From Terriglobia bacterium (lineage in GTDB: Bacteria > Acidobacteriota > Terriglobia > Terriglobales > Acidobacteriaceae), in the NCBI GenBank assembly GCA_020073105.1, contig JAIQFW010000029.1, positions 1 to 52,677 on the forward strand: a stretch of DNA of 52,677 nt, given 5' to 3'. Shown piece after piece: positions 21,444 to 23,557 of this stretch (within the stretch, counting starts at the first letter, position 1; every line of letters begins with the position of its first letter). The translations under genes were made by a program, and so were the position numbers. The notes beneath the pieces were generated by a model. That model made no database searches. It worked only from the letters and a program-made list of their open reading frames with translations, and was not told the DNA's origin.

Positions 21444-23557
21444 GTGTTTGTAAGCGGCGGTATCCGAGGCAGCGGAAGTCCACCCCCCTCATCCGGGCCG
21501 GACAGCAGCGCAACAACGCTGCGCAGGCGCCCGCCGGTTGCTGGCAGGTGGCAGTTCCGGCTTTCCGGCACCGCCGTGTCGCTCCTGGCGATCGTCATTA
21601 CTCTGTTCGTTCAGCTCACTTGGTATTCCCAGACCGTCATCTTGCTGTCGTTCCCTGGGGGCCGCTCCGTCCGCAACATTATTTGGCTGGCCTGGTTGAT
21701 GCCACTTTTCGTGATCTATCAAGAGAAGCGTATGCAGTGGCTGAAGCGCCGTCTGGTCAAACGGGAGGAACTGTTTCGCCTCATCAGCGAGAATGCGGCG
21801 GACATGATCGCAGTGGTCGATGTGAGCGGGAAGCGGCTCTACAACAGCCCGGCATACGAAAGAGTGTTGGGATATACGCGCGAAGAACTGGCTGCCACAC
21901 CCGCGTTTCAACAGATCCACCCGGTGGACCGGGAGAAAGTCATGGCCGCAGCCGGGGAGGCCCGCCGAACCGGGGTTGGCAAGCGGCTGGAATACCGCGT
22001 GCGGCACAAGGACGGAAGATGGCTGGTGCTCGAGTCTACCGCCAGCGTGGTCCAAAATTCGAAGGGTGAGGCGGAGAAGTTCGTCATCGTCAACCGGGAC
22101 ATCACCGAACGCAAGCGGGCGGAAGAGAGGATGGAACACAACGCCCTTCACGATGCCTTAACCGACTTGCCAAACCGGACGCTGTTTTTCAACCGGCTAC
22201 GGCGCGCGTTTGAGCGGGCCCGGAAGAACTCCAGTTACAAGTTCGCGGTATTGTTCATCGACATCGACAGTTTCAAGGTTTTCAACGACACCATGGGACA
22301 TGGTGTAGGTGATGAGCTGATCATTGAGATCGGCCGGCGGTTGGCGAACTGCGTGCGGTTTGAGGATGCGGTTGCCCGCCCGACGGGGGGAGAGGGAAGT
22401 GGCCCGGGTTGCAGCGATGAGATCCTGGCCAGAATGGGTGGGGATGAATTCACCATTCTTGTAGGCTCGATTCATGAGCCCAGCGATGCCATGCGAGTGG
22501 CGAGACGCATTCAGGAAGCCTTGCGCGCCCCCTTGTCGGTGGAGGGACGAGATGTGTTTACCTCGGCCAGCAGCGGAATCGCCCTCAGCACGACCCCACA
22601 TGATCGGGCCGAGGACCTCCGGACCTGCTGCGGGACGCGGACATCGCCATGTTCCGTGCGAAGAGTCAGGGCAAGGCAGGCTGTGAATTCTTTGACCCGG
22701 AAATGCACACCACGGCAGTCAAGCAACTCGATCTTGAGATCGACCTGCGCCGAGCGGTTGAGGAAGAGGAGTTTCGAATCCACTATCAGCCGATTGTGCA
22801 GCTTGAGACCGGGACCATCGCCGGCTTTGAGGCACTGGTGAGGTGGCAGCGTTCCCCGGCCAACCTGGTGTTCCCGGATAGTTTCATTAGCACTGTGGAA
22901 CGAACGGGGCTGGTGGTGCCTCTGGGACAGTGGATCCTTCGCGAAGCTTGCCGGCAGGCCCAGGATTGGCAATCCAAGTTTCCATCCTGTTCCCATCTGA
23001 GTGTGACGGTGAACGTCTCGCCTCGGCAGTTTGCGGTGGCCAACCTGGAGAGCGTCATTGGGTCGGCACTCGAGGAAACGGGGTTGGACCCCCGCAGGCT
23101 GCACCTGGAGATCACAGAAAGTGTCGCCATGGCGGATCCCCAGCGAACCGAACGCACGCTCTTACAACTGAAGCGCTTGGGGCTCTCCATCAGCATCGAC
23201 GATTTTGGGACGGGATATTCCTCTCTCAGCCGGTTGCGCCACTTTCCCGTGGACACGCTCAAAATTGACCGCTCCTTCGTGATGCACATGGACAGGGATG
23301 GCGAAGCGCGTGAGATCGTCCGCTTGATCATCGAACTTGCGCGCGCCGTGGATCTGAAAGTCATCGCTGAAGGCGTGGAGACTGCGGCCCACCGGGAGCA
23401 TCTCCAAAGCCTGGGTTGTGAACTGGGACAGGGGTACCTCTTTTCGAGGCCGGTGGACCAGGAAGGGGTCGTGAGACTACTGACCGCTGAGGTCGAGAAA
23501 CGTGACCTGGCCGCGCGGGATCCGAACCCGCGAACGCAGGCTGCAGGAACCAGTTGA
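21444..23557 (+). CDS. membrane PAS-GGDEF-EAL c-di-GMP protein, frameshifted between GGDEF and EAL
   Basis: Starts at GTG 21444 behind AAAGGGG. Two N-terminal membrane helices (VSLLAIVITLFVQLTW; NIIWLAWLMPLFVIY) lead to a PAS/PAC sensor (LISENAADMIAVVDVSGKRL). A GGDEF domain follows with an intact MGGDEF site, then an EAL domain with GFEALVRWQ, NVSPRQF, LEITES, DDFGTGYSSLSRL, KIDRSFV and AEGVE. Both catalytic sets look complete, so it could make and break c-di-GMP. At 22613-22628 the words GGACCTCC and GGACCTGC lie in tandem. The extra 8 bases shift the frame, so the first ORF ends at 22841. EAL continues in another frame (DADIAMFRAKSQGKAG onward). As read, GGDEF loses its last helices and EAL has no good start. 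Confidence 0.85.

Follow-up and report, generated by a model that had tools for sequence, protein, structure and literature searches.

Does a PAS-GGDEF-EAL gene whose GGDEF and EAL halves lie in different reading frames encode a switch, a pair of separate enzymes or simply a broken protein? This question is raised by a locus in a 52,677-nucleotide stretch of DNA from a Terriglobia bacterium, which was analysed at its full length and is called the window here; all of the window features described below lie on the + strand. The first frame, ORF1 (21444..22841, 465 aa), starts with a GTG preceded by AAAGGGG (anti-SD duplex of -7.8 kcal/mol) and encodes a hydrophobic N-terminal segment, a PAS domain at about residues 110-225 (21771..22118; Pfam PAS_3, PAS, PAS_4 and PAS_9) and a GGDEF domain (22143..22619; Pfam GGDEF, E 7e-38), followed after AEDL by 73 out-of-frame residues and a TGA. 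The second open frame (22604..23557) is shifted relative to ORF1, has its first ATG at 22649 and the next at 22703, and encodes the end of the GGDEF domain together with all of the EAL domain (22742..23452; Pfam PF00563 positions 3-236 of 236, E 2.2e-73). It carries EALVRW (22829), NVSPRQF (23012), EITES (23108), DDFGTG (23198), KIDRSF (23261), AEGVE (23366) and GQGYLF (23426), which we take to be the catalytic motifs of EAL domains. Judged as a composite GGDEF-EAL protein, the locus thus has a GGDEF motif (22437-22451), in a domain truncated before its C-terminal segment, and a complete EAL domain, but the two are in different frames, offset by +8 nt. Ahead of the GGDEF motif we also observed some 18 inserted residues (approximately 22383-22436); the solved GGDEF structures aligned here lack this insert, and the aligned homologues have it in variable sequence. 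The RxxD motif, whose usual place lies before GGDEF, was absent from that place when the sequence of the GGDEF half was read by eye.

At the junction of the two frames lies an imperfect 8-bp tandem duplication, GGACCTCC-GGACCTGC (22613..22628), which amounts to 8 extra nucleotides compared with the homologues. Unit 1 (22613-22620) and unit 2 (22621-22628) are identical at 7 of 8 positions and include a perfect 6-bp repeat at 8-bp spacing. The lag-8 identity ends at both edges, so that as a simple-repeat array of the phase-variable kind the site falls short: it consists of two mismatched units without extension. The bare 8+8 repeat is not unusual and no commoner than chance, the window containing 10 clusters of such pairs (at most 1 mismatch) where 30 first-order Markov sequences had 16.1 on average (range 9-26). 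A random 8-mer at a random place matches its neighbouring 8-mer at 7 or more of 8 positions in only 0.1% of cases, and for an 8-nt insertion a match at this chance level makes tandem duplication the likely origin. The one-base difference indicates that one unit was altered during or after the duplication event. An 8-bp inverted repeat (22561-22568 / 22607-22614) abuts the duplication. We rejected hairpin-driven mutation as its cause, because the stretch with the inverted repeat folds no better than shuffled sequences (z -0.44 and 0.29) and because 84 of 1169 91-nt segments of the window contain an inverted repeat of this kind.

To place the extra bases we compared 84 loci from among the matches listed, and obtained both halves in 82 of them at the cut-off used; the other two, L127 and L129, fell below the cut-off of this two-half comparison and each runs in one frame at a looser one. 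PAS-GGDEF-EAL is encoded in a single frame across the junction in 81 of the 82 loci (53 distinct proteins), and the sole out-of-frame locus is the window itself (L132). Two conserved codons at the junction are 9 nt apart in 79 of the 81 in-frame loci and 17 nt apart in the window; in the remaining two (L009 and L158, with identical protein) the spacing is 6 nt, one codon fewer. The homologues read IALSTTPH-RAE(D/E)LLRDADIAM(Y/F)RAK or close to it at this place. None of the 81 homologous loci, which include no congener of the host, carries the extra unit, and a paralogue of the same genome (L002/L131), situated at a contig end, is in frame and without the 8 nt. In this assembly an 8-nt duplication breaks the gene. 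The sequence-only reading had described the duplication, the 8 added bases and a GGDEF protein severed from an EAL domain that is otherwise complete, and all three descriptions hold. The paralogue seems to be part of a second PAS-GGDEF-EAL gene split over two contig ends, of which the GGDEF half would lie in L131 (G000:C152:1-12000) and the EAL part in L172 (G000:C234:1-4000).

Relatives of the PAS-GGDEF half were found in 398 of 398 genomes, and of the 200 genomes of the family that were searched for the EAL half, 150 had a relative. The named assemblies that match the EAL half best are those of Acidobacteria and Candidatus Sulfotelmatobacter, which makes an acidobacterial source probable. 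Acidobacteriota-like PAS-GGDEF-EAL proteins (the best of the matches listed being G056, L087) share with the window the domain order and the extra segment before GGDEF; the best of those listed are encoded in one frame of about 680-750 aa, whereas in the window gene 8 nt interrupt the frame. Protein identity between the window and L087 is 57% in the GGDEF half and 63% in the EAL half. The best relative's gene, L125, is flanked by D-Ala-D-Ala ligase-like, arginase-like and tRNA-synthetase-like genes (translations read by eye) and the window gene by a methyltransferase and a peptidase S58, so position gives no argument for orthology. In a plasmid collection, 19 records gave partial matches and none reached 80% query coverage.

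What ORF1 can still produce was judged from the solved structures. After AEDL, where homologues continue with LLRDADIAM(Y/F)RAK, the last part of the GGDEF domain, ORF1 has its 73 foreign residues. Its match covers chain residues 5-134 of 5m3c and 17-156 of 4rnh, and the matches of the EAL frame begin at residues 144 and 167, respectively. These limits indicate that the GGDEF fold in ORF1 is missing its C-terminal segment, and a working free cyclase from ORF1 is unlikely.

We then asked whether either half shows signs of decay. This analysis covered 48 of the 53 distinct proteins, with L105, L128, L131, L151 and L027 excluded because they were short or partial. In columns with a conservation of 92% or more, the window gene deviates in 3 of 94 positions of the GGDEF half and 3 of 72 of the EAL half, with means over 49 rows of 2.9% and 3.2%. 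Its EAL/GGDEF terminal-branch ratio is 0.77 of the average (rank 36 of 47, from 47 of 49 terminal branches after very short ones were dropped); in contrast, L171, which has a worn EAL domain, has a ratio of 1.72 (rank 8 of 47) and the top EAL deviation, 0.114. No relaxation of either half is visible with these measures, which average over a long terminal branch (0.88 substitutions per site separate the gene from L087, its nearest homologue) and are blind to a recent break. We saw no second inactivating change in the gene, though a one-base difference between the units has already arisen. That both halves are conserved like those of intact homologues points to a recent lesion, to a part that is still used or to an assembly error.

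We consider an ordinary and young frameshift mutation to be the probable explanation. A PAS-GGDEF-EAL gene of an Acidobacteriota-like bacterium would have acquired the 8-bp tandem duplication, with replication slippage as the most likely mechanism, and the C-terminal part of GGDEF and the entire EAL domain would thereby have lost the reading frame. ORF1 would now yield at most a PAS-GGDEF protein without the GGDEF C-terminal end and with a meaningless tail of 73 residues. Lacking a good start within the EAL frame, the gene would be a pseudogene of recent origin or, at the most, would leak some free EAL phosphodiesterase. We infer that the duplication is present in the organism itself, beyond this assembly.

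The alternative that the extra unit exists only in the assembled contig, or in a minority of the population, is, though unlikely, one of the two main rivals. The draft genome comprises 308 contigs and is 97.6% complete, the window making up one whole contig (G000:C282), and an artefact would leave both halves as conserved as in intact genes, as they are. On the other side, the units differ by one base, which does not fit the simple repetition of a single read or k-mer, and an 8-nt near-duplicate would be atypical of short-read assembly. It is quite improbable that the split gene is in use, with EAL translated alone from the ATG at 22649 (or that at 22703) as a free phosphodiesterase. What speaks for it is a complete EAL frame that keeps its motifs and has a coding-like GC content by codon position (0.663, 0.427 and 0.709). 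Against it, the anti-SD duplex upstream of 22649 is weak: at -4.5 kcal/mol it lies close to -4.1, the 25th percentile of the background, compared with -7.8 at the ORF1 start. Moreover this ATG encodes the M of the GGDEF 'ADIAM' motif conserved in homologues; being present within GGDEF in intact genes, it is not purpose-made, and translation of ORF1 passes it and continues to 22841. Eleven putative gene starts of the window, chosen from the ORF list, have duplexes of -6.4 to +1.2 kcal/mol, and with such a spread the weak site at 22649 is compatible with initiation in this host. Of the separate cyclase and phosphodiesterase products proposed from the sequence, the phosphodiesterase is thus still conceivable, given the complete EAL frame and a possible internal start, but the cyclase, without the C-terminal end of its domain, is not expected to work.

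A reversible switch, in which slippage between the units would toggle the fused enzyme on and off, had also been proposed, and we find it very improbable. The perfect 6-bp repeat could in principle slip back, and the EAL half has kept a degree of conservation that would suit occasional use. However, there are two mismatched units and no array, the insertion is missing from all the homologous loci (with no congener among them), and the nearby inverted repeat shows no more than shuffle-level folding. The proposal is accordingly not upheld, and in a partial literature search we found no report of a switch of this type in a GGDEF-EAL or diguanylate cyclase gene. A slow contingency element, whose slippage would alternate between full PAS-GGDEF-EAL and a split state making free EAL only, is tenable insofar as both halves are still conserved despite the break, and we would grant it a very slim chance. 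If true, part of the population would drop its c-di-GMP, and if both states exist this would be an unusual way of switching a second-messenger enzyme. Fusion of ORF1 to the EAL frame by programmed ribosomal frameshifting or transcriptional slippage is hardly credible: the shift needed is -1 and the frames overlap from 22604 to 22841, but the homologues need no such event, and we rejected recoding because the overlap lacks both a slippery heptamer (no XXXYYYZ in 22598-22841) and a long homopolymer (no A or T run of more than 3).

An ordinary frameshift mutation is also in line with what happens elsewhere in the family. Many of the short-frame homologues end at contig ends (for example L164, L165, L166, L168 and L170), the frame change of L163 coincides with a run of N, and the L100 and L101 matches have stops towards their C termini that probably represent natural ends. 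Real breaks among the short-frame homologues examined were found in L162, L169, L171 and L010. L162 (G259:C92:9500-13500, at about 2000) reads QFRIY*QPI right where EAL begins, an in-frame stop after which the EAL domain is still recognisable in the same frame; L169 has a frame change in PAS; and L010 (JASIKQ010000283.1) has an in-frame stop shortly before the GGDEF motif. In L171 (G236:C31:16500-20500, minus strand) EAL has become ETL, DDFGTG has become DNFGTA and KIDR has become KIAR, with a stop near the end of EAL, which suggests that phosphodiesterase function has been lost in that lineage. Sporadic breaks are not rare in these draft genomes, so that an ordinary explanation is sufficient for the window gene. 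The few same-family homologues with breaks or a worn EAL domain hint that EAL is dispensable in some lineages. As an ordinary frameshift the finding is of minor import, another broken c-di-GMP gene, and a caution that composite enzymes can be split by draft genomes.

Among known systems, the best solved relatives of both halves are 4rnh/4rnf ('Motility regulator') and 5m3c ('Diguanylate cyclase'), presumably MorA and MucR, respectively. They lack the 18-residue insert before GGDEF and, unlike the window, hold both domains in one chain. In Clostridioides difficile, c-di-GMP-linked phase variation works through invertible DNA elements and a recombinase (PMC6837544). The likeness is a reversible DNA change tied to c-di-GMP signalling; nothing similar to those elements or to the recombinase was found at the window site. 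In Pseudoalteromonas, wrinkled variants arise mostly by spontaneous mutations in one gene, AT00_08765, which is wspF-like according to a figure legend (PMC8919034). A parallel to a broken gene of this kind comes from Shigella flexneri, where dgcE, dgcQ, dgcN and pdeR are, like the window gene, GGDEF or GGDEF-EAL genes that are broken and have alternative frames near the break (PMC11327459). The Shigella lesions are early nonsense mutations before GGDEF whose products were tested, whereas the lesion in the window, known from sequence, duplicates 8 nt within the final part of GGDEF. With nonsense mutations in dgcE, dgcQ and dgcN, c-di-GMP is still produced and multiple proteins are expressed (PMC11327459). 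Since these broken dgc genes are still expressed, a leaky free EAL product from the window gene would be possible as well.
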